Positions 250-62,560 of a stretch of 64,000 bases of DNA are shown here, one piece after another (positions within the stretch are counted from its first letter, which is position 1; every line of letters starts with the position of its first letter). The position numbers and the translations under genes were made by a program. Below the pieces are notes generated by a model. That model was not told the DNA's origin. It made no database searches and was given only the letters and a program-made list of their open reading frames with translations. The stretch covers positions 126,001-190,000 of the IMG/VR virus record IMGVR_UViG_3300028045_000001. One strand, 5' to 3'. This stretch comes from a virus.

Positions 250-1977
250 ATGTCCAAACCATCCAGTGATAATGATTGGGCTGTCCTACATACGTTTAGA
301 TTTCACTTACCGAGATCTAAGGGTGGCGGGGAAGTAGTCAAGGTCTGCTTTCAGAATGTAATTACTAATGAGACTAAGATAGAGTACATTAAAAATCCAA
401 AAAGAAGTTTCTGGATAACTAAGCCAGAATTCCGCGATAAACGAAGCCCCAGATATTTTAATTATAATAAAGAGTGTGAAAAATTAAGTAATCTAGATGA
501 GTACAAATGCTATAATTATGAATTAAAACCGACCATACGTAAAGTACTGGGACTACCTCCTGTTTGGAACGAATGGAAGAGTGACCTATTTAAAAACCCA
601 CATGTGTTTGGGGCAGACATACCTATAGAAGTCCTAATAAAAAAATACTATAATGAAAAGTGTAGTGGACGAATATCAAAAATTGCATTTGGATCACTCG
701 ACCTCGAGACCTCAGTGTTACCCCAAACGTTCGAGCAAATAATAATCTTTTCGTTTGTAGACCATAATAAAAATCTTTATATTTCAGTGTATAGGCCATT
801 TATAAAGGATGCAATGGTCGACGATGAAGTTACTGCACATGTCAATAAGTTATTGGATAAATTAAAAACTAAAGAAATGAATATAAAAATATTCGTTAGT
901 TATTTTGACACAGAAGCGGAAGTTATAAAGGATGGGCTTAAAAATTTACATGAGAGTAAAGTGACTATATGTGGCATATGGAACATTGACTTCGATATAC
1001 CGAGGCTATTTAAACGCATGGGTGCGCTTGGATTAAACCCTACCGATCTATTCAATTCTCCGGATACTCCGAAAGAATATAGGACCTGGGAGTACGTCGG
1101 CAATGGTACAAAGATCATTATGGCGGATGACTTAAGCGTCAATATACGTAGGGACCAGACAAAGAAAAAGAAAAAGGGACACATAATGGATAAGTGGCGA
1201 CTGTTGTTGACTGGAAGTAGGGTGGCGTTTATTGACAGCGCATTACTATACGCCAGGGTCAGGAAAACATCAGAGCGCAAGGCATCGTATAAGTTAGGGT
1301 ACACCACGGAACAAGAATTAGATATGAGCAAATTGCAATTTCCACAGGGATTGGATCACTTTGAGATGCAAAGAGATAACTTCACGGATTACATCGCATA
1401 TGGTGGACTGGACCCTGTGTTAGTATTGTTGTTGGAATTAAAAAATAAAGATGTTCTCACTTTACTGGGCGATATCGGGAATAGCCGCCTACGCGATTAT
1501 GCATACCCAACCGTAACACTCAGGGACGACCTCCACGGGTATTATCTATCCAACGATCTGATTGGTGGATGTGCTGGTGGGGATATGTCGGGAAAATTTG
1601 ATGAGCACCTACATTCTAGGGGCGGTGCCGTGCTCCCAACAGATAGATTCAATGGTACCGGACTATGTGTTTTAGAGGAAGCCCCCGAAGTAGAGACCCT
1701 AATTCGTAGAGCAGTGGGCGACCTAGATGTGAAAGCAATGTACCCAACTATAGCTGATAAGTTTAATATTAGTAAGGGCACCAAAGTCTCAACATGTATA
1801 GGCATAGAAGGGTGTGGAAAAGATATCATTGTCCAAGAACAAACAATGGAGAAATGCTTTGGATGGATGACTTCCCCGAAAGCTAACGCGATCTTATTCT
1901 GTAACGAGTTCTTTAATCTTCCAAATACCACAGAGATGCATAGCGTGATCGATCAGCATTTAAATAAGATTCAATAA
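250..1977 (+). CDS. family B DNA polymerase, exonuclease plus palm motif A part only
   Basis: This 575-residue protein carries the 3'-5' exonuclease motifs of family B polymerases. Exo I is DLETS near residue 150, Exo II NIDFDIP near 245 and Exo III YGGLDP near 384. Polymerase motif A, DLDVKAMYPT, lies near 491-500. The chain stops about 75 residues later, so the expected motif B (K-x3-NSxYG) and motif C (DTDS) are absent. Downstream come a hairpin and a convergent gene, so the missing palm and thumb must be encoded elsewhere, or the protein is truncated. The start is set by AGGAGG 9 bases before ATG. Its role would be genome replication and proofreading. The family is clear; whether it is a naturally split polymerase is inference. 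Confidence 0.85.
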   Translation: MSKPSSDNDWAVLHTFRFHLPRSKGGGEVVKVCFQNVITNETKIEYIKNPKRSFWITKPEFRDKRSPRYFNYNKECEKLSNLDEYKCYNYELKPTIRKVLGLPPVWNEWKSDLFKNPHVFGADIPIEVLIKKYYNEKCSGRISKIAFGSLDLETSVLPQTFEQIIIFSFVDHNKNLYISVYRPFIKDAMVDDEVTAHVNKLLDKLKTKEMNIKIFVSYFDTEAEVIKDGLKNLHESKVTICGIWNIDFDIPRLFKRMGALGLNPTDLFNSPDTPKEYRTWEYVGNGTKIIMADDLSVNIRRDQTKKKKKGHIMDKWRLLLTGSRVAFIDSALLYARVRKTSERKASYKLGYTTEQELDMSKLQFPQGLDHFEMQRDNFTDYIAYGGLDPVLVLLLELKNKDVLTLLGDIGNSRLRDYAYPTVTLRDDLHGYYLSNDLIGGCAGGDMSGKFDEHLHSRGGAVLPTDRFNGTGLCVLEEAPEVETLIRRAVGDLDVKAMYPTIADKFNISKGTKVSTCIGIEGCGKDIIVQEQTMEKCFGWMTSPKANAILFCNEFFNLPNTTEMHSVIDQHLNKIQ

Positions 1978-5088: not shown

Positions 5089-6546
5089 ATGCAGACTAAA
5101 GTATTCAATACGAATGCACAGTATAAGAGTGATCCGAATGCATCTAATCTGTTTACTGATTTAAATCTAGGGTCACATACAATAAGTGCAGTAGATCTAA
5201 TAGTAACCCTCTTTGGTCATAACAAAGAGGAGCTTGATTTCGAAGCCTCTTGCGTATGTGGTCACTTAGAAGGTAACTTCTTTACGGAACCGACTGAGTG
5301 TCCAAAATGTAAGAGTAAGGTAAAGACTCAATTTTGCGATGAGCTTAGCTTTAGAGGTTGGATAGATATAGAGGGTATATTGGGAACACCTGTACTACAT
5401 CCTGTTGCGTATAGTTGGCTAAGTGGTTGGATGGGTAATATTAAAAAGGTCCCAATCATAGACATGCTATTAGATGTTGATGCAGAATTACCAGAAGAAC
5501 TGTCTGAATTAAAACAAGGGTATAATTATTTTTATAATAACTTCTGGAAGATCATAGAATTTTTTGAAAATACGAAATCCAAAAGAAAGCCAGTATCTAT
5601 AAGGCCACATTTGAGTCTTCTTGGGGACGATGTATTCGTATCTAAATTACCGATTCTAAATGGGGCACTGCACATCATGACCCATTATGGAAAAATGCGA
5701 TTGGCGGACAATACAAGCAAGTCAATAGTATCGGCACTTACGGAATTATCAGATGTCGTGTATAAAAATTCTACTTCAATAGTTAAGGATTCATATATAG
5801 ATAGCAGACTATGGTCTATATATAAATTGTACCTGCAATATACCAAAGATGTAGCTAAAACAAAAATCTATCAGAAGGGGGGAATTAATAGAAAACACTT
5901 ATTGGGCGGGAGGCTCCATTTAACTTTTCGAGCAGTCATAACCCCTATAACAGTACAGCATTCCATGGACGAACTGCACCTCCCATGGAAGATAGGCGTC
6001 ACTGGGCTAAAGTTAGAGATTCTAAATATATTAACTAAACGCATGAAGTACTCTATGGAGGATGCGGTTAGAATACATGCCGAAGCTATAGTTTCTTATG
6101 ATCAACGGGTCTCGGATGCATTGGATATATTAATAGACGAATCTCCGTTTAGAACTATGACAGGCAAAAAGGGATTATTTGTACTATTTGGACGTAACCC
6201 AGTTTTACAGTACCTTTCAATAATGGCATTTGTTGTAACTACAATTAAGAAAGAAGTTAATGATGAAACTATTGGTGTTTCAACTACGGTGGCTAAGTAT
6301 CCGAACCTTGATTTCGATGGGGATGAATTGTTCGGATTGTTTATCAAAGAAGTTGACGAAGCACGGTTATTTGAAAATCTAAAACCATACAATGGGGTAG
6401 CAGATAAACAGAAGGGCGGCATAAGTGATATGTTGAGATCACCTCAACCGATAACTCATCACTTGAATGCATTCATTCGGTCTGACGTCTGCGATGCACG
6501 CTGGTTATCACTGCGCTCTGTGGAGACGGATGGGGTAAGTAAGTAG
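5089..6546 (+). CDS. phage RNA polymerase beta' subunit, N-terminal half
   Basis: This 485-residue protein is the N-terminal half of a split beta' subunit. It has a zinc site (CVC near residue 56, CPKC near 71), the lid/rudder-side region GRLHLTFRAVITP near 285, and the catalytic magnesium loop PNLDFDGDELF near 405. That loop corresponds to the cellular NADFDGD motif; the three aspartates are kept. Cellular beta' is over 1100 residues, so this is about the first third. The remaining beta' part is encoded at 51766. In phiKZ-type phages two such polymerases exist, one virion-borne and one made early; which one this belongs to cannot be decided here. ATG is preceded by TTGGAG. Confidence 0.9.
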   Translation: MQTKVFNTNAQYKSDPNASNLFTDLNLGSHTISAVDLIVTLFGHNKEELDFEASCVCGHLEGNFFTEPTECPKCKSKVKTQFCDELSFRGWIDIEGILGTPVLHPVAYSWLSGWMGNIKKVPIIDMLLDVDAELPEELSELKQGYNYFYNNFWKIIEFFENTKSKRKPVSIRPHLSLLGDDVFVSKLPILNGALHIMTHYGKMRLADNTSKSIVSALTELSDVVYKNSTSIVKDSYIDSRLWSIYKLYLQYTKDVAKTKIYQKGGINRKHLLGGRLHLTFRAVITPITVQHSMDELHLPWKIGVTGLKLEILNILTKRMKYSMEDAVRIHAEAIVSYDQRVSDALDILIDESPFRTMTGKKGLFVLFGRNPVLQYLSIMAFVVTTIKKEVNDETIGVSTTVAKYPNLDFDGDELFGLFIKEVDEARLFENLKPYNGVADKQKGGISDMLRSPQPITHHLNAFIRSDVCDARWLSLRSVETDGVSK

Positions 6547-7385: not shown

Positions 7386-7883
7386 ATGTGGGTATCGCAC
7401 AATTGTCAAATATTAACATATGATCATAAATTAAATAAATGCAAAACATTTATTATAGATGATTTATATAACAAGGATAATTACCACGAAGTAATGATAC
7501 AGAGTGACAAAGGATGGGTCCAATTAGAAGAACTATTGTTCACTGGTTTAAAACTGTCCGTTGAAGCATCAACAATTAACGGCCACCGGATTACTATTCC
7601 AACCGATGGGTATTTGATAGATGCTGGATTTGATCCGATCTGCGCAAACAGAATGCGGGTCGGGTCACATGTAGTAATAGATAGCGGAAAATCTAATGGG
7701 TCGTTGTGCCAATCGTATGGGTTAGATGGAATTATATCAATCAAAAAACTGGGGTATATCCATACCTATTCGATCTGCATTGGGGGCATAACTCACGTAT
7801 CAATAAACGATTTTTTGATACCGTCTATGTCCATTGAAGTTAGAGATCTGTACAATATTGGCATGTATCAAATAATAGAATAA
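7386..7883 (+). CDS. stand-alone Hint-like (intein-fold) protein
   Basis: A 165-residue protein with its own early promoter and AAGGGGGTG before ATG. The order of segments resembles a Hint domain. An N-terminal Cys-containing strand (NCQILTYDHK) is followed by IIDDLY. A block B-like part (HRITIPTDGYLID, then ANRMRVGSHVVID) comes next, and finally a block F/G-like end (HTYSICIGG, then HVSINDFLIPS). The usual block B His and the terminal His-Asn-Cys are not in place, so protein splicing is unlikely. Three related proteins lie at 62601, 63096 and 63634. Fold assignment is by eye only; the function is unknown. Confidence 0.45.
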   Translation: MWVSHNCQILTYDHKLNKCKTFIIDDLYNKDNYHEVMIQSDKGWVQLEELLFTGLKLSVEASTINGHRITIPTDGYLIDAGFDPICANRMRVGSHVVIDSGKSNGSLCQSYGLDGIISIKKLGYIHTYSICIGGITHVSINDFLIPSMSIEVRDLYNIGMYQIIE

Positions 7884-8062
7884 GCACAGGTAGGAGTATG
7901 ATCCAAGTAAGGTAATTTTAATTACTACGCGTACATAAATGCATTATATTTATTGGGGGGTTTAGGTATCCAAATTAAAAAATAGGATGGTTGTACATTA
8001 TATGCGGATCCTAAGGAATGAGAAACGTTAATGTAATTTTAAACAGAGGGAAGGTTGTCAAA

Positions 8063-10321
8063 ATGAGGGATAACTACTACGAAGAAACTTTTAATGCGAA
8101 TATGATTGAATTGGAGAGGAGCGGGGATGGGAATGTCAAAGCTATACGAAACATTTTCAAGGTCATGCACGAAAAAATAATAGCTCTGGAGCGCCGGCCA
8201 CACGTGGAGACGTTAACTGCAACTGCTTGCTCAGATACGGCGGAAATAAATAAACGAGTTAGTAAGATAGAAGAGAGTACCTATGAAATACATGAAAAAT
8301 TAAATGACATATCCTCTGTACTAATCGAGCATTGCAATAAGCCTGAGGCCACTATCAGCGAGGAGGTCATAAATCAACAGACCACGGCTATCTTAGATAG
8401 AATAAACCAGAATGATTCCGAAATAATGCCAGGTTACCTTAAACAAATATCTGATTTAGTGTACGAGAGTTTTACAGTGATTTCAAATGAAATGAAACAA
8501 ACCAATCTTGCCACAATTGAGGTCATGTTAGACGCAGCGAAAGTTAGAATACCTCCGGAAACAATGACCATAGTTGATAAAAGATTAAAAGACCTTGCGG
8601 ACGCTGTCGCAAACATGTCCGGAGTATCAGATATGCTAAGGAAGGATAACTACGATTCACAGGCGCACCTCTCGCGTGTATTTTCAGAATTTACTAAGCG
8701 GTTATCCGAGGTCATTTGCAGTATACCAACGCAGGATACCGCAGCAGTCGAACTTGGAAGTGTGGTCGCTACTGAAGATAGTCGCAATGATACCGTCTAT
8801 GAAGTAACACCTTCAAGTAACAATGGTGATGGGGAATACAATCACTCTGTAGATGAATTACTTGAAGATGCGGAAGAGATCCTCGAAGTAGACAATAGTC
8901 CCAATTTGGAAGATACTATTGTAGAAATGGAGGACGCGGATGATGTGGATATCGAGGAGAATGAAGAGATTGACGCAGAGCCGGAACCAGAAAGAGTTTA
9001 TGATAATTTAACGGACACCGAGACAGCTTCGCTTATTTCTGGAGATGTGGAGGATGTAGAGGATATACGCATAATGGAGGAACGAGCTTCGCTGCAGCAG
9101 ACAATCAATGGAATAGATCGAGACATACGCTCGGTGAAAAACAACCTTACTGATATTGTATTTGCTGTCGGGAAGTCGAGCGACCCCTCAGCTATTTTCT
9201 CATTTATGAGGGAGACATTCGGGTATAAGGACAAAATTACAGATGTGTTCAGGAAGGCCAATGAGGTGTTCGCTTTAGTGGTCGAGTATATGAAATCGGC
9301 TGATGCTACTGTATCAGAGAACGTTATCTTTAATAAGGCAGTAGATAGATTAAACAGCGATGCAAGGTCGCTCGTTGCAAAGTATAATGAAAGTTTGCGA
9401 ACATGCAACAAAGCGTTCTCTACCTACATGGACACACAATCTTACATCGGCCCAAATGAAGCCGCTAATGTATTGAGCGAGATCTGTGATGAAATTCAAA
9501 TCATTATAAATGAGAATAATAAACAAACTGGTAACATCGACAGTAAAAAGGATTATAAAAACTGTATAGCTCATATAGCTAAGAGCGCCAATAATTATTA
9601 TAACCAAGTGCGACTCGGACTAAAAGGTATATCCGATGAAGAATTGGAAAATTCCAATATAGTTGTCCCATTGGAATACTTCCAGTACATGTACAAATTT
9701 TTCGTATCAGAGGTACAGGATCCTGGAGCGAATGATGCATTCATAAATTACGATGACGCCACAGGAACGTTCATGTATTCGGATAGACTCCCAATAGCTT
9801 CATATGAAGATGAAGATGCACTATACCTAGAAATAGTAGAAAACTTCAGTAATCTTGATCTTGATGATTCACAGATTCCTGGACAATTGCAGGGGTTGAA
9901 AGATGTTAACGAAGATTGGTTTCGTGTGCAAACTTTTCGTACCTTTGCTGATGAACTTAAATTCTTTGAACCTGAGGAACTTAGACGAAAACTCGCTGCT
10001 TATTCTGATAATTCTCCTACAGAGATTGACCATTCTAATTTCATACGCATATACGATGTAGCGGCAACTAACCGTAATGAAAATAAACTTAGTTATGAGT
10101 TGATCCCTTTGTTACTTGGCGACAATGTTCAACATGAGATAATGACGATAGCATATAGAACATATACGGAGTACAAAGAAGTATTGAAGGAGTTTGGGAA
10201 AAGGTTTGCCGCTGCCGTCCATGTTGCCCAATCCCAGAATCTTGAAGTATTGGATGAAATAGGACTAAGGGAACTATTGGAAGGGGTTGAACAAGAAATC
10301 GATGATTGTTTGGAGGGATGA
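8063..10321 (+). CDS. large acidic protein with coiled-coil regions, unknown
   Basis: Start ATG 8063 has AGAGGGAAGG nine bases upstream; an ATG at 8018 is only one base from its AAGGA and is less likely. The 752-residue product begins with heptad-like helices (residues 1-220). A very acidic linker follows near 255-330, rich in Glu and Asp, and then a long helical C-terminal part. It has no membrane segment, signal peptide or known motif. A large internal or scaffolding-type virion protein or an interaction hub would fit, but nothing proves it. No TATATTAC element lies upstream. Confidence 0.6.
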   Translation: MRDNYYEETFNANMIELERSGDGNVKAIRNIFKVMHEKIIALERRPHVETLTATACSDTAEINKRVSKIEESTYEIHEKLNDISSVLIEHCNKPEATISEEVINQQTTAILDRINQNDSEIMPGYLKQISDLVYESFTVISNEMKQTNLATIEVMLDAAKVRIPPETMTIVDKRLKDLADAVANMSGVSDMLRKDNYDSQAHLSRVFSEFTKRLSEVICSIPTQDTAAVELGSVVATEDSRNDTVYEVTPSSNNGDGEYNHSVDELLEDAEEILEVDNSPNLEDTIVEMEDADDVDIEENEEIDAEPEPERVYDNLTDTETASLISGDVEDVEDIRIMEERASLQQTINGIDRDIRSVKNNLTDIVFAVGKSSDPSAIFSFMRETFGYKDKITDVFRKANEVFALVVEYMKSADATVSENVIFNKAVDRLNSDARSLVAKYNESLRTCNKAFSTYMDTQSYIGPNEAANVLSEICDEIQIIINENNKQTGNIDSKKDYKNCIAHIAKSANNYYNQVRLGLKGISDEELENSNIVVPLEYFQYMYKFFVSEVQDPGANDAFINYDDATGTFMYSDRLPIASYEDEDALYLEIVENFSNLDLDDSQIPGQLQGLKDVNEDWFRVQTFRTFADELKFFEPEELRRKLAAYSDNSPTEIDHSNFIRIYDVAATNRNENKLSYELIPLLLGDNVQHEIMTIAYRTYTEYKEVLKEFGKRFAAAVHVAQSQNLEVLDEIGLRELLEGVEQEIDDCLEG

Positions 10322-10325
10322 TACA

Positions 10326-10610
10326 ATGGAACTTAAGGATATACTTGATATGGATTGTCCAAAACTTGTCACAGAAGTGACGGCCTTAATGTTTATTCAT
10401 GAGAGTTATTTCGTTGAGTTCCATTACACTTGTGACAGTTTTCTCAATCGTTCATTATATTTTCATATGTGGCCGAGAGACTGTAGTAAAAAAGATGGTC
10501 CCAAATTTTATATCTCTAATGGGAAGCTACATACACAATTTGAAGGATTTTGTGACCGATCCAAATTTTTAAGAATGAGGAGATTACTTAAAACACAACT
10601 ATCTAAATAA
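10326..10610 (+). CDS. unknown 94-residue protein
   Basis: ATG 10326 follows the stop of the large acidic gene by four bases, with GGAGGG overlapping that gene's end, so the two are translationally linked. The product is rich in aromatic residues and has no known motif. It leads into the NADAR gene 25 bases on. Confidence 0.65.
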   Translation: MELKDILDMDCPKLVTEVTALMFIHESYFVEFHYTCDSFLNRSLYFHMWPRDCSKKDGPKFYISNGKLHTQFEGFCDRSKFLRMRRLLKTQLSK

Positions 10611-10635
10611 AAATTAGAAGTTAGGAAGGAGTCTA

Positions 10636-11070
10636 ATGGAAACTATAAATGAGTTTAAGGGGAATTGGGCATTCCTAAGTAATTTCTACTATGCGCATTT
10701 TTATGTAGATGAGATTGGGTACGCCACTATGGAGCATTGGTATCAATCACATAAGACTGAATGTATGCTTGAAAGGGCAGCGATAGTGGCTGCCCTTTCA
10801 CCATATAAAGCCAAACAGTTTGGAAGAAAGGCAACACTGATTCCTAACTTCGATAGCGTAAAAGATGAAATAATGTTATCGGGCCTTTTGTATAAATTTA
10901 AAACCTTGTCAGAACTTAGCAAACGTTTGATTGATACTGGAGATACCAAGCTAATTGAAGGTAATTATTGGAATGACACTTACTGGGGAGTTTGCTTAAA
11001 AACTGGGAAAGGCGAAAATAAACTAGGTGAGCTACTAATGAAAGTTAGAGATACATTAAAATCTAATTAA
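10636..11070 (+). CDS. NADAR-family (DUF1768, YbiA-like) protein
   Basis: The 144-residue product follows the NADAR pattern closely. It has FKGNWAFLSNFY at the start, then TMEHWYQ.HK, AK.FGRK, LIDTGDTKLIEGN, WND.YWGVC and GENKLGELLM near the end. Length is normal for the family. NADAR enzymes act on ADP-ribosylated guanine or related N-glycosides and work as antitoxins to some DarT-type toxins. A phage copy could therefore undo a DNA-modifying host defence. It sits next to a Nudix fusion, which also acts on nucleotide derivatives. Family assignment is firm; the counter-defence role is inference. Confidence 0.88.
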   Translation: METINEFKGNWAFLSNFYYAHFYVDEIGYATMEHWYQSHKTECMLERAAIVAALSPYKAKQFGRKATLIPNFDSVKDEIMLSGLLYKFKTLSELSKRLIDTGDTKLIEGNYWNDTYWGVCLKTGKGENKLGELLMKVRDTLKSN

Positions 11071-11072
11071 TT

Positions 11073-11111
11073 TATACGATGGATACACAGGTTATGTGTA
11101 TCCATCGTATA
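11073..11111 (+). repeat. 17-bp perfect inverted repeat before the Nudix fusion
   Basis: Left arm 11073-11089, right arm 11095-11111, loop five bases. No T-run follows on the plus strand; instead AAAAAAAGGA, the ribosome site of the next gene, comes shortly after. It may terminate transcription or control access to that site. Confidence 0.55.
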
Positions 11112-11134
11112 GCACAAAAAAAGGATATGTAACT

Positions 11135-12412
11135 GTGGGCGATAATACGAAAGGAGTGATTATAGTTAAGGGTTCACCGACTTCTGGAAAAGATACTGTT
11201 GTACGTTTATTAAAGAATAGTTTACGCATCGATTCAACCACATCAATGCAGAGAGTCAATGACGAGGTTGAAGCGCAATTTGGATATGGTGCCGATGAAA
11301 GACATCCCGCAGTCCGTGAGTATAAGGCGGCTTTAAAGAGGATGCTCGTATACGTCAACGACTGGCCCACAAAAGACGCTATTGAATTTATCCAGAAGAG
11401 TGCAGCACAATATGTCACAGTTATGATACATGAGAAGACAGAGATACTTAAACTAATGTTGGAGTGTAGGACACTCGGCATCAAATGTATTTTTTTATAT
11501 GTAGATAATGTGATAGATTGGGACTCCAATAATGTTGACGAAACGAAAGCCATTGCGGACATTGTCATTGAGACCTCTGGAACTATGGAAGACTTGATAA
11601 ATTCTATTCCTCCTAAAGTAAAGGAGATAGAGGAGCTATTTGAAGATTCGACTGTATCTCGAGCTTACAACCAGTTGCCCATTCGGGACCTTATATCGCC
11701 ACATTACCAAATTAAAAAATCATATTCCCATAGACTTCCAAAATTTGGAGCTGTGCCAAAATATCCAGATGAGGATGTACTATGCATCCAAACTAAAGAT
11801 ATTGACGCCGTGCTACAACCCGATGTATGGCCAAACGAGTATGTCATCGGATCATACAACCTCTTGAACACAATAGACTCATTGCCACACTCATATATAA
11901 ACAGACAAATATGTGAAGAGGATTCCCATTGGACACAGGTAATACCGTACATATTAATCAAGAATAAGGATAATTATTTTTTCTCCTACGCACGTAATGG
12001 AAATGAAACAAGACTCACTGGGCAACGTGGGATAGGAGTAGGTGGACATGTTGCTAAAGAAGACGGCGGTATTATAGAGAGTATTCTTAGAGAAGTAACA
12101 GAGGAGTTGGGATATGTCCCGATGTTTAATGCGCTTCGATACTGTGGTTATGTTAAAGATAACCGAACCGAAGTTAGCTCTAAGCATTTAGGATTAATTT
12201 TTATTCTAACCTTGAGTGGTCCTTTAAATGCAACAAACATTTCTTCAGAGATATCTAATGAAATTGGTTGGATAAGAATTAAAGAGGCGCGGGATGAGAA
12301 GTATGAATCGTGGGCTAGGATCATCGCCTCCAATCTTGTTGTACTTGCCGACCACCCGGCTGTTCCAGAAGGAGGCTTTGGAAAAGACAGTTATTCTACG
12401 CCGATTGCATGA
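11135..12412 (+). CDS. P-loop nucleotide kinase-like domain fused to a Nudix hydrolase
   Basis: The likely start is GTG 11135, eight or so bases after AAAAGGA; upstream in-frame codons lie inside a hairpin. The N-terminal half has a Walker A loop GSPTSGKDT (residues 13-21) in a kinase-like domain of about 170 residues. After a linker, the C-terminal half is a Nudix domain. GVGGHVAKEDGG leads into REVTEELGY near residues 300-326, with one residue more than usual between the box's Gly and Arg-Glu. Nudix enzymes cleave nucleoside diphosphates linked to another group; the substrate here is unknown. Placed between NADAR and DUF488 genes, it may belong to a nucleotide or NAD-derivative module. Confidence 0.78.
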   Translation: MGDNTKGVIIVKGSPTSGKDTVVRLLKNSLRIDSTTSMQRVNDEVEAQFGYGADERHPAVREYKAALKRMLVYVNDWPTKDAIEFIQKSAAQYVTVMIHEKTEILKLMLECRTLGIKCIFLYVDNVIDWDSNNVDETKAIADIVIETSGTMEDLINSIPPKVKEIEELFEDSTVSRAYNQLPIRDLISPHYQIKKSYSHRLPKFGAVPKYPDEDVLCIQTKDIDAVLQPDVWPNEYVIGSYNLLNTIDSLPHSYINRQICEEDSHWTQVIPYILIKNKDNYFFSYARNGNETRLTGQRGIGVGGHVAKEDGGIIESILREVTEELGYVPMFNALRYCGYVKDNRTEVSSKHLGLIFILTLSGPLNATNISSEISNEIGWIRIKEARDEKYESWARIIASNLVVLADHPAVPEGGFGKDSYSTPIA

Positions 12413-12496
12413 GCTCGAAGCCCCACCATCATCAACGCATATTGAACAACATAGGCCGGGCCAATATAAAAAGATATAATTTTTAAACAATCTCTC

Positions 12497-12525
12497 CTAT
12501 GGCTGTGTTCTAAACACAGCCATAG
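12497..12525 (+). terminator. hairpin after the Nudix fusion
   Basis: 13-bp perfect stem with a 3-base loop, no clear T-run. Confidence 0.5.
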
Positions 12526-12545
12526 TTTATAACAATAGGATACAT

Positions 12546-12917
12546 ATGATACTTAGAACTTCCTACTTTGCTAATTTGAAAGTAATACAAAGTATACATG
12601 AAACTGTGCCATTATGTATAAGTATAATCAAGCCAAGGTGGTTAGATGGTTCAATATTACAATATAAGCAGCTGGCTCCTACATGGGAGTTAGTCAACGA
12701 TCTAAAGAATAATAGAATAACGGAAAAGGGGTACACTACTATATATGAGCAAATGTTGGACAAGTTAGATCCCCATGAAATCAGTAAGGAGTTCATGGAA
12801 ATGGGTAACGACATAACGCTATTGTGTTATGAAAAGTCTGGATTCTGTCACAGAAAAATAGCTGGTACTTTCTTGTTTGAAGGAAGTCCTTTAATAACAA
12901 AACTTATAAGGGGGTAG
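12546..12917 (+). CDS. DUF488-family protein
   Basis: A 123-residue product with the DUF488 layout. It has an N-terminal RTSYFANLK, a middle WLDG...YKQLAPTWELVNDL, and the typical C-terminal ITLLCYEKSGFCHR, in which the Cys-Glu and Cys-His-Arg elements are the family signature. The biochemical role of DUF488 is not settled. The upstream site is weak (AATAGGATAC), and the gene ends four bases before the endolysin start, so they are probably translated together. Confidence 0.72.
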   Translation: MILRTSYFANLKVIQSIHETVPLCISIIKPRWLDGSILQYKQLAPTWELVNDLKNNRITEKGYTTIYEQMLDKLDPHEISKEFMEMGNDITLLCYEKSGFCHRKIAGTFLFEGSPLITKLIRG

Positions 12918-14323: not shown

Positions 14324-16327
14324 ATGAAGACGAGGCGTAAGAAAGGTACTGGGAGAAATAAAACCCTTGTTAAGCGCAATAAAAAAACTGCGGCGCACTT
14401 GGCGGCAGCGAACGAGGCCGTCGAGCTTGCTAAAAAAGAACTCGATTCTCAACCAACCGACGAGGAAGTGTTCGAGAAATTGGTCGAACGCTTCCTGTCC
14501 AAATTTACTGAAGAACTACGTTTAGACGCAATTAAAGTGGACGGTGCCGCTGCGCTCGCACAATCCCTGCTTGATAAATTACCTGGCACGCTTTCAACAG
14601 ATCCCATTAGAGGCCAGCTCCCTAAAAAAGAAATTGATTCCCAGCCAACCGAGGATGAACTACTCGAAGGATTGGCCGAACGCATGATGCTCAAAATTGG
14701 GTTCGGTGCGAACGAACACGCGTATCTCGAATTGGTGGAAACCATGAAAGAAGGCTGGACATCAATGGTCGATAAAAGTATGAAAGAAGACCCGGAGCCA
14801 GTTCCCGACAGATCTACACACGTGCAATCCCTAATCAAGAGAACACATGATAGATTTGAACTCTCTACCGCTCACATTAGAAACGAGCATGCCAAACATA
14901 TCGATGCATCCGACGAGTATCCAAATCTTATTGCATTTATGACCCTGTGCGAGGTTGGGGGGATGCCCATCCCGTCTAAGCTTTATGCTTCAATAAAGCT
15001 TAGACTTAAAAACCGCACTGTAGGAGCACATCAATATGGACACGCTGACCATACGGTGAGTCTGTCCCCTGAATTAAAATCATTTCATAAATACCGCAGT
15101 AGTCGAATTTTACATGAGATTGATAAATACTTTGAATTATATACGCTTAGCCACATCTTGTATCATAAAGTAAGTGGAGTCAAAGTCCACCTTTATTACA
15201 AAGGAGGGGTCCTACAGAAGGCCTTAATACCAGATGTTCATGGCACGCCAAACCTCAAGTGTATGACCGAGAACGAATACAATGCATTCGATGTCACTCC
15301 AACCTTTCTGCGAACCGTCATTGGCTATCCTCTCACAATACCCGAATCGACCCGATCACTTGTGGTTGTCGGAATTGCAACATTGCCCAGACAAGAGGAT
15401 GAAGATGGCGAGTACGTTGCCCCCTTTTCGCATGCATCGTATTCAACAAGAACTAAGTATGTGAAAGATGTCTTACTTAGTGATGATTATGACAGCGAGG
15501 AGTTATGCTCGGATATGCATTTTATTCCATATAATTTTTATGTGGATGGACAGCCGCAAAATACACATGAATTTTGGTCAGTCAATCTTTTTGAGACGCT
15601 AGGGAGAGAATACAAGTTCCCATTTAGACCAATTGTGAAAATAGTTACCTCTAAAGGATGTATCGATATAACATTTACGGCAGACTCTTTACTGATCAAG
15701 GCTGCAGGGGACTGCAATGTAGTCGATCCAGGTTTTACACCCAAGCAACTATATAAGCGCATTATAGAAGAAATACATGATCTCGATGCGTGCCAATATG
15801 ATTGCGATGGGATCGTGTTAACATTAAATTCCTTTTCGCACAGAGATCATGTTAATGCTTCCGAGCTAGGTCTATGGCCTACTCCAGATTCTGGTCCTAT
15901 TCGAACACCCTCATATGAGATCGCCATAGAGGATGGTGGCCCAGTAAGAGATACATTTGTAAATGCTGTGTCATGGAAACGAGGAATATTAAATACAATA
16001 GTCCCAGTAGTTCATGTGAAGCCCGTTAAAATAGACAATGAAGTTGTGAGTGCGGTTCACTTTAAAACCATATTTAATTTTAAGTACGCCAATTTAACGA
16101 TAAACTCCAAGGTACAAATTTTCTTACCCGCATACGGGGAGCCAAGGTTACGGAGAGTATACGATACTGACTTCTTTAGTCCACCTAAGGAGGATAGAAA
16201 AATAGAACTACCGACCTCTTGTCCCAGGTGTCGGGGAAGCGTAAAGAATGATCCGCCTCTTTTACTGTGTGTAAATTACTGTAAATCAAAAATGAAAAGA
16301 TCTGATATCAAAGTCTGCAGGTTTTGA
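14324..16327 (+). CDS. divergent NAD-dependent DNA ligase (LigA-like)
   Basis: A 667-residue protein whose C-terminal two thirds follow bacterial LigA. The adenylation-site region HKVSGVKVHLYYKGGVL corresponds to K-x-D-G-x-A-x-x-L-x-Y; the lysine (about residue 282) is kept but Asp is replaced by Ser. Motif IV is CDGIVLTLNS. The OB-fold start VVHVKPVKIDNEVVSAVHF matches LTPVA..EPV....V.RATLHN. A four-Cys zinc finger begins at Cys633. The HhH and BRCT regions are absent. The N-terminus carries about 165 extra residues with an internal duplication (KKELDSQPTDEE and KKEIDSQPTEDE). It would seal nicks during replication, using NAD. The divergence raises doubt about full activity. Confidence 0.72.
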   Translation: MKTRRKKGTGRNKTLVKRNKKTAAHLAAANEAVELAKKELDSQPTDEEVFEKLVERFLSKFTEELRLDAIKVDGAAALAQSLLDKLPGTLSTDPIRGQLPKKEIDSQPTEDELLEGLAERMMLKIGFGANEHAYLELVETMKEGWTSMVDKSMKEDPEPVPDRSTHVQSLIKRTHDRFELSTAHIRNEHAKHIDASDEYPNLIAFMTLCEVGGMPIPSKLYASIKLRLKNRTVGAHQYGHADHTVSLSPELKSFHKYRSSRILHEIDKYFELYTLSHILYHKVSGVKVHLYYKGGVLQKALIPDVHGTPNLKCMTENEYNAFDVTPTFLRTVIGYPLTIPESTRSLVVVGIATLPRQEDEDGEYVAPFSHASYSTRTKYVKDVLLSDDYDSEELCSDMHFIPYNFYVDGQPQNTHEFWSVNLFETLGREYKFPFRPIVKIVTSKGCIDITFTADSLLIKAAGDCNVVDPGFTPKQLYKRIIEEIHDLDACQYDCDGIVLTLNSFSHRDHVNASELGLWPTPDSGPIRTPSYEIAIEDGGPVRDTFVNAVSWKRGILNTIVPVVHVKPVKIDNEVVSAVHFKTIFNFKYANLTINSKVQIFLPAYGEPRLRRVYDTDFFSPPKEDRKIELPTSCPRCRGSVKNDPPLLLCVNYCKSKMKRSDIKVCRF

Positions 16328-22945: not shown

Positions 22946-23000
22946 CGAGATGAGATACTGACGTAGAATAAAGGAACATCAGTGATGCCCAGGGTACATG

Positions 23001-23032
23001 TGTCAAGGGAGACTCCGGAGTCTCCCTTGACA
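23001..23032 (+). terminator. 32-base perfect palindrome terminator
   Basis: A 16-bp stem, followed about 13 bases later by a T-rich run that merges into the next promoter. Confidence 0.65.
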
Positions 23033-23052
23033 CAAACTTCATTATTTTTTTA

Positions 23053-23127: not shown

Positions 23128-25377
23128 ATGAAAAAAGAAACTTCCCACTTTGTAACAAAGTGGGCAGGTAAACAGATCAAACTACCATTAGATCCAGATG
23201 GAGTGTATGACTTCACAGTAGATTGGGGAGATGGCGCGATTGACCAGATAGCTGTACACGATCAAAGTGAAACGATGCACACTTACAAAGACAAACAAAA
23301 GTCCCATACCGTAACTATATCTGGCACCATAGAAGGGTTTGGATTTTACAAGGATCTCGAAGCAATTAACGGAGGATTGCTCGATGTACTTCAATGGGGA
23401 AATGTTAAGTTACATAACAAGGGGTATCAGTTTGCAGAGTGTAAGAAATTAAAGGGGTTTAGTGCCAAAGATGTTCTATATTTATCTAACGTAACTCATA
23501 TGGGGTGTATGTTCTATGAAGCCATATCCTTCAATCAGGACTTATCCAATTGGGATGTAAGTAGTGTTATTGATATGAACGGCATGTTCTGCGGAGCTAT
23601 GTCATTCAATCAGGACATCTCCACATGGGATGTGAGTAATGTTACCCGTATGTATGGCGTGTTCTTTAAGGCCACTTCTTTCAACCAAGACCTATCCAAG
23701 TGGGATGTTAGTAGTGTTATTAATATGGATGGCATGTTCAGTAAGGCTACATCCTTCAACCAAAGCATATCCACATGGGATGTGAGTAATGTTACCCGTA
23801 TGTATGGCATGTTCTCCGAGGCCGCATCTTTTAATCAGGACATATCCAAATGGGATGTGGGTAGTGTTACTGATATGCACGATATGTTTCTCAAAGCTTC
23901 ATCCTTCAATCAAGACATTTCCACATGGGATGTGAGTAATGTTACCAATATGGGCGCTATGCTCTCTACCGCTACTTCCTTCGACCAGGACATATCTAAC
24001 TGGGACGTAAGTAATGTAACTGATATGGAGCTGATGTTGGCGGGAGCTACATCCTTCAATCAAGACATTTCCACATGGGATGTGAGTAATGTTACTAATA
24101 TGAGCTATATGTTCGCTAACGCTTCATCCTTCAACCAAGATATCTCCACATGGGATGTGGGTAAGGTTGGTAACATGAAACAGATGTTCTCGGGAGCTTT
24201 GGTATTTAATAAGAATATCTCAGACTGGAATATCGGCAACGTCACTGATATGGAAGGCATGTTCAATAAAGCTTCTTCTTTCAACCAAGATATCTCCAAC
24301 TGGGATGTGGGTAAGGTTGGTAACATGAAACGTATGTTCTCTGAAGCCAAAGCTTTTAATCGAAATATCTCAGACTGGAATACCGGCAATGTTGAAGATA
24401 TGGCAGGTATGTTCTGGAGAGCCTTAGCTTTTAACCAAGGCATACCTAACTGGGATGTAAGTAGTGTTACCGATATGGAGCAGATGTTTGCAGGTGCTTC
24501 ATCCTTCAATCAAGATATATCAAAGTGGGATGTCCGTAGTGTTATTAATATAGATGAGATGTTCCAGGAAGCTACCTGTTTCAACCAAGACATATCCAAA
24601 TGGGATGTTAGTAGTGTTACTGGTATGGAGCATATGTTCTATAATGCCGCATCATTCAACCAAGATATATCCAACTGGGACGTTAGTAATGTTACTACTA
24701 TGGCTGGCATGTTTACAGGTGCTTCATCCTTCAACCAAGATATATCTAAATGGGATGTGAGTAGTGTTACTAATATGAGGCTTATGTTCGGCGAGGCTAC
24801 ATCCTTCAACCAAGACTTATCTAATTGGGACGTTAGCAGTGTCACCGATACAGCTGGGATGTTTCTCAAAGCTTCCTCCTTCAACCAAGATATATCTAAA
24901 TGGGATGTGGGTAGTGTTACTAATATGGAACAGATGTTCTGTTACGCCATAGTCTTCAATCAAGACATATCCAACTGGGATGTGAGTAATGTTGCAAATA
25001 TGATGCATATGTTCACACATGCCATGTTCTTCAACCAAGATATATCCAAATGGGATGTAAGCAGTGTTACTAATATGAGAGGTGTGTTCATTGGTACTTT
25101 GTTCTTCGATCAAGATATCTCTAAATGGGATGTAAGCAGTGTTACTGATATGCAGGGTACGTTCTGGGAAGCTACATCGTTTAACCAAGATATATCCACA
25201 TGGGACGTAAGTAATGTAACTGATATGAAGAATATGTTCGCTAAAGCCACATCCTTCAATCAAGACTTATCTAACTGGAATGTCGACAGTGTTACTAATA
25301 TGAAGAGTATGTTCGCTGGAGCCACATCCTTCGATCAAGACATATCCAAATGGGACATCAGTAATGACGATCGATAA
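23128..25377 (+). CDS. BspA-like DUF285 repeat protein, 749 residues, no signal peptide
   Basis: AAAAGGAG precedes ATG. Residues 1-130 form a head with a PKD-like part (DFTVDWGDG, then HTYKDK and HTVTISG). From residue 134 there are 24 tandem 25-residue repeats with consensus SFNQDISxWDVSxVTxMxxM, then FxxA, and a partial 25th. This is the DUF285/BspA leucine-rich-like repeat, normally found on bacterial cell-surface proteins. No signal peptide, lipobox or anchor is present, so this copy should stay in the cytoplasm. It has its own early promoter. A shorter relative lies at 26697. The function is unknown; a binding scaffold is the natural reading. Confidence 0.88.
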   Translation: MKKETSHFVTKWAGKQIKLPLDPDGVYDFTVDWGDGAIDQIAVHDQSETMHTYKDKQKSHTVTISGTIEGFGFYKDLEAINGGLLDVLQWGNVKLHNKGYQFAECKKLKGFSAKDVLYLSNVTHMGCMFYEAISFNQDLSNWDVSSVIDMNGMFCGAMSFNQDISTWDVSNVTRMYGVFFKATSFNQDLSKWDVSSVINMDGMFSKATSFNQSISTWDVSNVTRMYGMFSEAASFNQDISKWDVGSVTDMHDMFLKASSFNQDISTWDVSNVTNMGAMLSTATSFDQDISNWDVSNVTDMELMLAGATSFNQDISTWDVSNVTNMSYMFANASSFNQDISTWDVGKVGNMKQMFSGALVFNKNISDWNIGNVTDMEGMFNKASSFNQDISNWDVGKVGNMKRMFSEAKAFNRNISDWNTGNVEDMAGMFWRALAFNQGIPNWDVSSVTDMEQMFAGASSFNQDISKWDVRSVINIDEMFQEATCFNQDISKWDVSSVTGMEHMFYNAASFNQDISNWDVSNVTTMAGMFTGASSFNQDISKWDVSSVTNMRLMFGEATSFNQDLSNWDVSSVTDTAGMFLKASSFNQDISKWDVGSVTNMEQMFCYAIVFNQDISNWDVSNVANMMHMFTHAMFFNQDISKWDVSSVTNMRGVFIGTLFFDQDISKWDVSSVTDMQGTFWEATSFNQDISTWDVSNVTDMKNMFAKATSFNQDLSNWNVDSVTNMKSMFAGATSFDQDISKWDISNDDR
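23527..25374 (+). repeat. 24 full plus one partial 75-base coding repeats
   Basis: The tandem DNA repeats encode the BspA-like units. Some neighbouring units are almost identical, so copy number may change by recombination. Confidence 0.85.
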
Positions 25378-26223: not shown

Positions 26224-26568
26224 CTAAGGGAACTTAAAAACAACGACTTTTAATCCATGTGATTTCGCTATATCTATCATGTGAGAAGTTCCCTTGCTTT
26301 CCCCATCCCATAGAGCGATAAGTGCTTCAGCTACTTTAGCCATCTCCACATTTCGTTTGTACCCTGCAGAGTTACCGTACTTGTCCCAATCAGCTGGGTA
26401 CTTTTCAATGGGAACTCTATTTTTAAAAGCCCACTGTTCGCCCAGTCTATCGGCCCCTCTTGCGGTGCCACTTATTACTGTAGTGGGGACCCAAGGAAGT
26501 TGTTGCAGAGCAGCTAATAAATGTTGTGGGTCATCACATGTCCTACTCCCAGCAATTATTGTTCTCAT
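26224..26568 (-). CDS. DUF2493 SLOG-family protein (YspA-like)
   Basis: A 114-residue minus-strand gene with GGAGAATGAAAC before ATG. The sequence matches the family throughout: MRTIIAGSRTCDD at the start, VISGTARGADRLGEQWA in the nucleotide-binding loop, YPADWDKYGNSAGYKRN, and ALIALWDGESKGTSHMID near the end. SLOG proteins bind nucleotides or NAD-like ligands and include sensors in defence systems; the phage role is not known. It is a lone minus-strand gene among early plus-strand genes, as is the Acb2/Tad1-like gene 1.7 kb on, which suggests insertion of accessory genes. Confidence 0.88.
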   Translation of the reverse strand: MRTIIAGSRTCDDPQHLLAALQQLPWVPTTVISGTARGADRLGEQWAFKNRVPIEKYPADWDKYGNSAGYKRNVEMAKVAEALIALWDGESKGTSHMIDIAKSHGLKVVVFKFP

Positions 26569-26696: not shown

Positions 26697-27848
26697 ATGG
26701 AATCTGGACAATTATTTGTAACCGAGTGGCGTGGACATATGATAGTGTTACCGTTGAGTAAAAATGGAACATATGATTTTGTAGTAGATTGGGGAGATGG
26801 TACAACTATAAGTATAACGGAGTATAATCAGTCAGAAATCACGCATGCCTATAAGGACTCAAAGTTATTTCACATAGTAACTATATCCGGAATTATAGAA
26901 GGGTTTGGATTTGGATTTAATGGGGGAATTGGACCACAAGAATGTGAGTTGGTGGACGTTATTCAGTGGGGAAATGTCAAATTGAATAACGATGGATATC
27001 AATTTAATAATTGTATTGGGTTAAAGGGATTTAGTGCTAAAGACAGTCTCGACCTATCTAACATTACCAATATGAGTTATATGTTCTATGGGTCTATATC
27101 ATTCAATCAAGATATTTCTAACTGGGATGTGAGCATGGTTACGAGAATGGATAGTATGTTCCACTACGCTGTCTCTTTCAACCAAGATATATCCAAGTGG
27201 GAAGTTGATAATGTCACTGACATGAGATGTATGTTCTACGAGGCCATAGCATTCAATCAAGATACCTCTATGTGGAATGTTAGTAGTGTTACCGATATGC
27301 AATATATGTTCTGTGAAGCTGCTGCCTTCAACCAAGATATATCAAAGTGGGATGTAAGTAAGGTGATTGATATGAATCATATGCTCAATGGCATTTTATC
27401 CTTCGACCAGGACATATCTGATTGGGACGTTAGTAGTGTGACTAATATGAGTTATATGTTCTCTGACACTCTACGCTTCAACCAAGACATCTCTAATTGG
27501 GATGTGAGTAATGTTACTAATATGATGGGCATGTTTGCTGGTGCGAGTTCTTACAACCAAGATATATCTAATTGGAATGTTAGTAATGTTGCTAATATGG
27601 GGTTTATGTTTTATGGAGCTTCGTCCTTCAACCAAGATATCTCCAAATGGAATGTAAGTAATGTTACCGATATGAGGCACATGTTCAATAATGCCACATC
27701 ATTCGATCAGGACATCTCCACATGGGATGTGAGTAAGGTTGCTGAAATGGAGCATATGTTTTATGGAATCGAATCACACAATATTCCAACATTAAAATGG
27801 AGTATCATTAAAGCTGATGCCAACACACGTCAATCGGAAAGAACATAG
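26697..27848 (+). CDS. BspA-like DUF285 repeat protein, 383 residues, no signal peptide
   Basis: A paralogue of the 23128 product with the same head (DFVVDWGDG, ITHAYKD, IVTISG) and nine full 25-residue repeats of the FNQDISxWDVSxVTxM type starting near residue 135, then a unique 20-residue tail. It too has no signal peptide and its own early promoter. The two genes differ mainly in repeat number. The spacer between them holds three unrelated genes, so the pair arose by duplication and later insertion or rearrangement. Confidence 0.87.
   Translation: MESGQLFVTEWRGHMIVLPLSKNGTYDFVVDWGDGTTISITEYNQSEITHAYKDSKLFHIVTISGIIEGFGFGFNGGIGPQECELVDVIQWGNVKLNNDGYQFNNCIGLKGFSAKDSLDLSNITNMSYMFYGSISFNQDISNWDVSMVTRMDSMFHYAVSFNQDISKWEVDNVTDMRCMFYEAIAFNQDTSMWNVSSVTDMQYMFCEAAAFNQDISKWDVSKVIDMNHMLNGILSFDQDISDWDVSSVTNMSYMFSDTLRFNQDISNWDVSNVTNMMGMFAGASSYNQDISNWNVSNVANMGFMFYGASSFNQDISKWNVSNVTDMRHMFNNATSFDQDISTWDVSKVAEMEHMFYGIESHNIPTLKWSIIKADANTRQSERT
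27099..27773 (+). repeat. nine 75-base coding repeats
   Basis: Tandem repeats of the second BspA-like gene, same unit as 23527-25374. Confidence 0.82.
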
Positions 27849-30416: not shown

Positions 30417-30456
30417 GCGTCAATCCTATGCCAACAGCGACTTTCAATTTTTATTA

Positions 30457-30475
30457 TTTATATATTGCTATAGCG
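30457..30475 (+). promoter_or_regulatory. TATATTGC variant of the early promoter
   Basis: TTTATATATTGC-TATA-GCG, followed by AATAGGA as in the 18599 group. It drives the 30524 gene. Confidence 0.6.
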
Positions 30476-30523
30476 AATAGGACAATTAAATTTATTTTTA
30501 TCTCACATAAAAAGGAGAGCATC

Positions 30524-30925
30524 ATGATCAATATGTCATTTAGTTACACAGTTGGAGTTGAAAAGGAATCCCAAGAAATAATACTTGCAGCCATTCGACT
30601 CTACTTCCCCGATTTTGCAGATGAGATGGATGTACAATTTGGTGAAAGTAGAGAGTCGGAGACAAAAAGAGTGGCGACTTCCTACACTATAACATTGAAG
30701 ATTAAAGATAGCTTGTTAGACAAGGGCTTAAAATTTGCGATTGGCATACAGCCAATCGTAGATCTCCTTGCCAAGGGAAGTTTTGAAAACTCTTCCATTG
30801 TTGATGACATTGGTGTTAACCTTGTGGAGATGCATGGGGATGAAGAGACTACCACTGTACTTGTACCAATGGACGAATGCGAAAAGATTGATCTTACCGA
30901 TGTAGAACAAAATGAACTACATTAG
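30524..30925 (+). CDS. unknown 133-residue early protein, paralogue of the 32734 product
   Basis: ATG 30524 follows AAAAGGAGAGCATC. The protein is the same length as the 32734 product and similar throughout: SYTVGVEKESQEIIL against NYTIEIEEESRVLLL, I..QPIVDLLAKGSF against L.KPVIDLITNGSF, and a common end in DVEQN or DVEQK. It is a beta/alpha protein with an acidic C-terminus. The family is unknown. Confidence 0.7.
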   Translation: MINMSFSYTVGVEKESQEIILAAIRLYFPDFADEMDVQFGESRESETKRVATSYTITLKIKDSLLDKGLKFAIGIQPIVDLLAKGSFENSSIVDDIGVNLVEMHGDEETTTVLVPMDECEKIDLTDVEQNELH

Positions 30926-32659: not shown

Positions 32660-32733
32660 CTTATGTGGGTCACAATGGTATAATTAGAAAGCACGTAAAT
32701 ACTAATACAAAAAATATAAAGGAGAAATTCATC

Positions 32734-33135
32734 ATGATCACTGTATCTTATAACTACACAATAGAAATTGAAGAAGAATCACGAGTATTGTTACTTAACG
32801 CCATTCGAGCATATTCCCCAGAAGTGGCGGATAAATTGGAAGCAGTATTCAAAGAGCAAGAGAACGATGAAACAAAGAATTTAAAAAGTTCGTACACTAT
32901 GACCATGAGTGTAAAATCTAATTTGTTGGAAAAAGTTTCAAATTTGGCAGTAGGCTTGAAACCAGTGATTGACCTTATCACAAATGGAAGTTTTAGTGAC
33001 TCCGAACTCATGAAAGATATTGGGATGTCTGTTACAGAAATACATGGCGATATAGAACGCACTACCGTGATAAATCCAATTGCTACTAATGAGAATACTA
33101 ATAATGTTGATGTAGAACAGAAGTACACACATTAG
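32734..33135 (+). CDS. unknown 133-residue protein, paralogue of the 30524 product
   Basis: ATG 32734 follows AAAGGAGAAATTCATC. It is aligned end to end with the 30524 product, with conserved EESR/KESQ, a C-terminal GDIERTTV against GDEETTTV, and a final DVEQ. Even the start context ATCATGATCA is shared. Two diverged copies kept in one locus suggest related but separate targets. The function is unknown. Confidence 0.7.
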   Translation: MITVSYNYTIEIEEESRVLLLNAIRAYSPEVADKLEAVFKEQENDETKNLKSSYTMTMSVKSNLLEKVSNLAVGLKPVIDLITNGSFSDSELMKDIGMSVTEIHGDIERTTVINPIATNENTNNVDVEQKYTH

Positions 33136-49460: not shown

Positions 49461-49505
49461 ATGTAAAGTAAAAAAATAAATTAATAAACGATGGAGGTAC
49501 CCCAA

Positions 49506-51644: not shown

Positions 51645-51711
51645 TAACACGTGAATAGAATTCGGCAATATGCCGTCCGGTACACTAACAATAAATTTCA
51701 ATCACACTTTA

Positions 51712-51730
51712 TTTATATGTTACATGTATG
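51712..51730 (+). promoter_or_regulatory. TATGTTAC variant of the early promoter
   Basis: TTTATATGTTAC-ATGT-ATG, 36 bases before the chosen start at 51766. Confidence 0.66.
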
Positions 51731-51765
51731 GAATCTTGACTATGGACATAACTAACGGGGTACAC

Positions 51766-60700: not shown

Positions 60701-60743
60701 GTGCCTAACAAGTACATAGCAATGCTATGTACTTGTTAGGCAC
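60701..60743 (+). terminator. 20-bp perfect hairpin
   Basis: The longest stem in the window, with a 3-base loop and no T-run. Confidence 0.6.
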
Positions 60744-62554: not shown

Positions 62555-62560
62555 AAATAA
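62126..62560 (+). CDS. zinc-finger-array protein, four units (144 residues)
   Basis: ATG 62126 lies one base after the stop of the seven-unit gene, with AGGAGAATGAT overlapping its end. Four units of the same C-x4-C-x9-C-x2-H type. Except for the start, its units are close copies of those in the seven-unit protein. Confidence 0.76.
   Translation: MKICKVSWCDRGRVAKGYCITHYQQMRRKGKLLPDGPAVCKVDGCDGKHYAKGYCQKHYLQMHKRGKTMPDRVAECQVDGCDRKHHAKGYCSRHYRQVQKHGKTMSDRVITVGCKVDGCKRKYYAKGHCSKHYLQIWKHGEIIK

Follow-up and report, generated by a model that had tools for sequence, protein, structure and literature searches.

Three adjacent genes in what appears to be a very divergent phiKZ-like jumbo phage code for a NADAR protein, a fusion of a P-loop domain to a Nudix domain, and a DUF488-N3a protein (Table 1). 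Our tentative reading, with a probability of about 45%, is that they form a loose island of accessory genes whose products process ADP-ribose compounds in counter-defense. The observations behind this reading are the domains themselves, their intact catalytic residues, the adjacency of the genes, the other members of the ADP-ribose kit in the same genome, and the occurrence of DUF488-N3a beside NADAR and Macro domains in three viruses; from these we infer the substrates, the order of the reactions and the counter-defence purpose.

Table 1. Features of the three-gene region, its surroundings and the comparable viral contigs (window positions unless another record is named)
Feature	Position	Strand	Description or basis
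phiKZ-type DNA polymerase	250-1977		phrog_3011, E=8e-89
RNA-polymerase beta-type subunits	5089-6546, 49491-51605, 51670-53883
ORF opening the interval	10326-10610	+	94 aa; no family match in family searches
NADAR protein	10636-11070	+	144 aa, YbiA-like, without N-terminal extension; PF08719, TIGR02464, residues
Inverted repeat between NADAR and Nudix gene	11073-11111	.	perfect, 17 bp, 5-base loop
P-loop (NMP-kinase-like) + Nudix fusion	11135-12412	+	425 aa from GTG 11135
Walker A motif GSPTSGKDT	11171-11197	+	NMP-kinase type, in N-terminal P-loop domain; sequence, weak family matches
Nudix domain	11858-12340	+	TM1382/phrog_8902 type; family and structure-database matches; confident part of model
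Inverted repeat between Nudix gene and DUF488	12497-12525	.	perfect, 13 bp, then TTTAT
DUF488-N3a protein	12546-12917	+	123 aa, bacterial-type clade, FCHR motif; C101 at 12846-12848
YspA-type SLOG (YAcAr)	26224-26568	-	PF10686, 2.9e-16
Macro domain gene, same record, outside window	G000:C1:24741-25070		PF01661, 2e-6
Viral contig L077	NADAR 9998-10423, DUF488 10786-11199, Macro 11199-11615
Viral contig L064	SLOG 7832-8395, DUF488-Macro fusion 8361-9200, NADAR 9929-10474
Viral contig L133	TARG1-like Macro 7579-7995, DUF488 7995-8342, NADAR 8600-9043		found via DUF488 search

Genomic setting

The stretch of DNA analyzed here (the window) covers 64,000 nucleotides (126001-190000) of a virus record 239,960 bases long, in a genome of about 240 genes; most of the window genes, those for NADAR, Nudix and DUF488 included, share one direction. 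Its DNA polymerase is approximately 23-26% identical to the best matches in a phage collection, all of which come from jumbo phages, mostly phiKZ-like, and a search of the viral_contigs set with this polymerase recovered no relative. The identity of about 25% and the lack of a relative in that set thus indicate, at the level of sequence, that this phiKZ-like jumbo phage is highly divergent and has no close relatives in which the linkage of the three genes could be followed directly.

Several other window genes show unusual architectures. The resemblance of a 667-aa protein (14324-16327) to NAD-dependent DNA ligases (phrog_3869, 4e-11) is restricted to its C-terminal part. Two adjoining ORFs at 61339-62560 are built from repeats of the type CKVDGCDxKHHAKGYCxKHYLQ, which probably bind zinc, and the ORFs at 23128-25377 and 26697-27848 have N-termini of the same kind; the former consists of repeats matching the large, functionally uncharacterized phage families phrog_17273 and phrog_22899. 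The ORFs at 30428-30925 and 32665-33135 are alike in sequence (SYTVGVEKESQEIILAAIRLYFPD and NYTIEIEEESRVLLLNAIRAYSPE), likely reflecting a local duplication.

Domains encoded by the three genes

On sequence, the identity of the NADAR protein is unambiguous, and the active-site residues located in it are intact. It was recovered in a family profile search with PF08719 (E=1.5e-26; 94 bits against a cut-off of 35.1), matches phrog_1017 at 9e-43, and in structure-database searches it retrieves E. coli YbiA (2b3w, 3e-15) and the NADAR structure 8bau (3e-7). E33, K40, D114 and W117 are all present, and the same residues are invariant in an alignment of 82 phage NADARs; in the reference proteins these positions are the catalytic Glu/Lys (E88 and K95 of E. 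coli C7) and the D/W pair that binds ADP-ribose (PMC11543638). The protein also exceeds the NCBIfam cut-off of TIGR02464, named as a riboflavin-intermediate N-glycosidase, but this name does not discriminate the substrate because the model describes the YbiA fold, to which enzymes that take ADP-ribose off guanine belong as well (PMC11543638, PMC11125620). NADARs act on DNA and RNA, stripping ADP-ribose from guanine (PMC11543638, PMC11125620, PMC11833690), and a phage NADAR has been found to split guanine-ADP-ribose in both nucleic acids in vitro (PMC11125620, PMC11833690). Yet rescue of cells from DarT1 was seen only with the C7 and EPEC proteins and not with an E. coli phage NADAR that was active in vitro (PMC11125620), and it is therefore doubtful that the window NADAR would confer such rescue. 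With the NADAR antitoxins associated with DarT1 (DarG1; PMC11543638) it shares the fold and the equal spacing of the catalytic Glu and Lys, but it is YbiA-like, lacks an N-terminal extension and has no adjoining DarT toxin, a search of the record with PF14487 having found no DarT homolog. Like gp30.3 of T4 and the phrog_1017 proteins it is a stand-alone phage NADAR, lying far nearer to phrog_1017 than to Pfam Phage_30_3 (0.0036, under the cut-off). As a separate observation, a single ORF of Pseudomonas phage CL (L009:6004-6969) combines a NADAR with a following, weakly scoring YspA-type SLOG domain.

The second gene most likely starts at a GTG nine bases past AAAAAAAGGA; an alternative GTG at 11096, which would yield a 438-aa product, sits within a hairpin arm. 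Its C-terminal part is a genuine Nudix domain, as judged from matches to phrog_8902 (4.5e-23), the TM1382 structure (3e57, 6.5e-10) and, just above the cut-off, PF00293 (2.3e-4; 21.6 bits against 21.1). The catalytic REVTEE lies at 12089-12106, and by eye the Nudix box has one residue more than usual ahead of REXXEE. The GGE-RL, GGH and REXXEE motifs are shared with the TM1382-like proteins and phrog_8902, TM1382 itself being described as uncharacterized (PDB 3e57); however, among the relatives examined only the window protein carries an N-terminal P-loop domain. This half was modeled poorly, in contrast to the confident Nudix part, and gave weak matches only (AAA_18, 0.094; phrog_2071 'ATPase', 0.004; uridine kinase, 0.02), including 29% identity at E 0.2 to a Rhizobium phage gene annotated as a dNMP kinase. 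The Walker A motif, combined with this weak similarity to nucleotide kinases, makes 'kinase-like' a fair label for the predicted domain.

The third gene encodes a protein that Pfam places in the 'active DUF488-N3 subclade' (PF22751 DUF488-N3a, 1e-6; 29.5 bits against a cut-off of 27; phrog_2450, 3.3e-22). C94 and the C101-H-R motif are intact, the latter being invariant in our alignments. The structure model has a pLDDT of 90, and a fold search with it returned no significant match (best E 0.08). The sequence-only reading of adjoining NADAR, kinase-Nudix and DUF488 genes is thus borne out by family and structure matches, with the 'kinase' half represented by a Walker A motif and weak matches only. 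DUF488 reportedly belongs to a rhodanese-phosphatase clade, for which Burroughs and Aravind in 2023 (NAR Genomics and Bioinformatics) are said to have predicted action on NAD derivatives and nucleic-acid ends. A related prediction has been made for DUF4326 (PMC9503650).

Among 50,697 phage records the window DUF488 (E up to 1) matched mostly phiKZ-like phages and Lak megaphages, and a second DUF488 query matched 198 phage records of similar host spread, PHIKZ151 included. A protein of Acinetobacter phage Ab1-TPeters that at first looked like a DUF488 was found to be a DUF4326. PHIKZ151 (L225:5977-6327) is annotated as hypothetical, and DUF488-N3a appears to be widespread in phiKZ-like jumbo phages; a different architecture is seen in a viral contig (L134:7290-8420) where a DUF5131 protein carries DUF488-N3a as a C-terminal fusion. 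In Psa21 and Noxifer the DUF488 gene directly follows a UvsX-like gene, and in phiKZ it occupies the matching place after PHIKZ152. The window protein belongs to the same Pfam subfamily and has the same FCHR motif as these proteins, but its gene does not adjoin a UvsX-like gene. In a tree of 59 sequences over 104 columns, many of whose forks are unresolved, it groups with bacterial-type proteins away from the PHIKZ151 side (supports 98/91 and 96/89), which suggests that it was probably acquired independently of the phiKZ-core PHIKZ151 clade. A single DUF488 copy was found in the whole record; this and the tree are consistent with the core gene having been replaced by a bacterial-type one.

Hairpins between the genes

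The three genes lie side by side, with perfect hairpins behind both the NADAR and the Nudix gene. Across the window as a whole there are 32 perfect inverted repeats (arms >= 11 bp counted, 11-20 bp observed, loops short), against 0-1 in a shuffled-sequence control, and 29 of these lie outside the ORFs as called; further examples are found at 22999-23034 and 60701-60743. These repeats resemble gene-end hairpins without a T run and are perhaps recognized by the phage's own RNA polymerase. It is on account of the missing T run that a simple terminator scan of the window scored neither of the two hairpins in question. Should such hairpins terminate or process transcripts, each of the three genes would be a unit of its own, and the presence of two perfect ones makes a single plain operon appear unlikely.

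Gene neighborhoods in other viruses and bacteria

We gathered DUF488-N3a homologs with several alignments and surveyed flanks of up to 8 kb per side. None of the 46 viral loci with a window-type DUF488 (some of them duplicates) has a NADAR, Macro or window-type Nudix gene within this distance, and NADAR is likewise absent from the vicinity of all 11 bacterial loci; a SLOG-like gene occurs at one of the viral loci and a SLOG gene at one of the bacterial loci. The commonest neighbors in the viral contigs are genes for phage DAM-like methylases, GNAT, ParB and RadC. Similarly, no NADAR, DUF488 or Macro gene was found in the flanking stretches examined of 14 viral relatives of the Nudix protein, and searches starting from Nudix, DUF488 or NADAR did not recover the triplet elsewhere. 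A PF08719 search identified NADAR in 2 of 10 phiKZ-like records, pEa_SNUABM_54 and FLC9, and the block is absent from the phiKZ-like relatives examined, NADAR and DUF488 lying about 30 kb apart in pEa_SNUABM_54. In pEa_SNUABM_54 gene 251, beside DUF488, was considered as a relative of the window Nudix (7.6e-4 in a tiny database) and dropped as Pfam finds no Nudix domain in it. pPa_SNUABM_DT01 has been published as carrying YspA, Nudix, NADAR and Macro genes; contrary to that report, its record gave no NADAR match in the PF08719 search. These results speak against the block as a conserved unit, and the expectation that it would be kept together in related phages was not upheld.

The absence of conserved linkage, however, applies to the triplet and does not extend to the NADAR-DUF488 pair. 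DUF488-N3a is present in 4 of 50 viral NADAR records, and in two of these (L077 and L064) the NADAR gene is on the same strand and no more than 1.4 kb away. With L133, there are three unrelated viral contigs in which NADAR, DUF488-N3a and Macro occur in consecutive or near-consecutive genes, a count that represents a biased rate, as L077 and L064 were found through NADAR and the query that retrieved L133 was partly built from both. The Macro domain of L133 matches PDB 4j5r (8e-23), and those of L077 and L064 match 2fg1 (BT1257) and 5m3i/5m31, the last two being entries for Thermus aquaticus DarG. In view of these arrangements, it is plausible that DUF488-N3a forms part of viral ADP-ribose modules.

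Proposed function and its alternatives

In addition to the three genes, the record encodes a SLOG and a Macro domain protein (Table 1); a PF04095 search detected in it no gene for a NAPRT/NadV-type phosphoribosyltransferase, as used in NAD+ resynthesis. NADAR, Nudix, Macro and SLOG proteins of jumbo phages have been interpreted as counters to ADP-ribose/NAD-based host defenses (PMC9503650, PMC7824862), and the survey of Iyer et al. 2022 (PMC9503650) offers the best frame for the present case as one of counters to ADP-ribose-based host defense. The window phage shares these four components with the published NAD+-ADP-ribose kit, but differs in that its NADAR, Nudix and DUF488 genes are adjacent and its Nudix bears a P-loop domain; DUF488 is named in the main text of neither survey, the related DUF4326 holding that place. 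The sequence-only reading had proposed a counter-defense module: its ADP-ribose theme is supported by the NADAR residues, the SLOG and Macro genes, the published kit and the three contigs; the fixed three-gene unit is not supported, in view of the missing linkage and the intervening hairpins.

Under the island reading, the accessory enzymes would process NAD-derived ADP-ribose compounds during infection. NADAR would most likely hydrolyze the N-glycosidic bond joining ADP-ribose to guanine in DNA or RNA, or that of a soluble relative, the Nudix domain would split a nucleoside-diphosphate bond, for instance within ADP-ribose, and DUF488-N3a, as a predicted Cys-based enzyme of the rhodanese-phosphatase type, may act on a phosphorylated sugar product. 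Along with the SLOG and Macro proteins encoded elsewhere in the genome, they would blunt host defenses that work by ADP-ribosylating nucleic acids or by producing ADP-ribose signals. Points against this reading, besides the missing linkage and the hairpins, are the usual phage neighbors of window-type DUF488 and the lack of DarT and NAPRT/NadV-type matches in the record. A more specific proposal, which we regard as rather unlikely, would have DUF488-N3a as a dedicated extra enzyme: NADAR or Macro would free or open the ADP-ribose adduct and the Cys-based DUF488 would process the phosphoribosyl end, Nudix in this phage replacing Macro beside DUF488. The outcome would be the destruction, beyond reuse, of ADP-ribose signals of the host or of DNA/RNA adducts.

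It is quite possible that the genes were acquired separately and that gene turnover in this region made them neighbors by accident, without their cooperating, in which case NADAR alone might still serve counter-defense. The non-conserved three-gene linkage, the hairpins and the probable independent acquisition of a bacterial-type DUF488 all favor such an accident. Three consecutive genes with one theme are nevertheless unlikely to arise by chance in a genome of this size (a post hoc count gives about 1e-4 for the three named genes and about 1e-3 if any three of the five genes of this kind are allowed), and NADAR lies beside DUF488-N3a in three unrelated viruses, with a Macro domain every time.

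Care of metabolite or nucleotide pools, with NADAR as a riboflavin-intermediate N-glycosidase and the kinase-like/Nudix protein sanitizing or phosphorylating nucleotides in aid of phage DNA synthesis, appears improbable to us. The TIGR02464 score, the NMP-kinase type of the P-loop and the location of NADAR near nucleotide-metabolism genes in a T5-like phage are in line with it; against these, the TIGR02464 fold includes guanine-ADP-ribose removal, the block adjoins no riboflavin or nucleotide-synthesis gene, and DUF488, SLOG and Macro would be left unexplained. More improbable still is a role of DUF488 in DNA modification or DNA-end processing, which would confine the ADP-ribose function to the NADAR and Nudix genes. 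Its commonest neighbors in viral contigs, and the UvsX-like and structural genes that it adjoins in phiKZ-like phages, would fit such a role, but three viruses encode DUF488-N3a beside NADAR and Macro, and in one of them it is fused to the latter.

Implications

The counter-defense claim for this phage alone was mostly anticipated by the earlier surveys. What is new is modest, namely the fusion of a kinase-like P-loop domain to a Nudix domain, the presence in a phiKZ-like genome of a DUF488 of bacterial type, and the recurrence of NADAR, DUF488 and Macro together. If the island reading is true, the fusion would be an unusual addition to the phage ADP-ribose toolkit. More generally, the recurrence of DUF488-N3a beside NADAR and Macro, and its fusion to Macro, would give this uncharacterized family a testable role in ADP-ribose chemistry, which may have relevance beyond the present phage because DUF488-N3a proteins like PHIKZ151 appear to be widespread in phiKZ-like jumbo phages.
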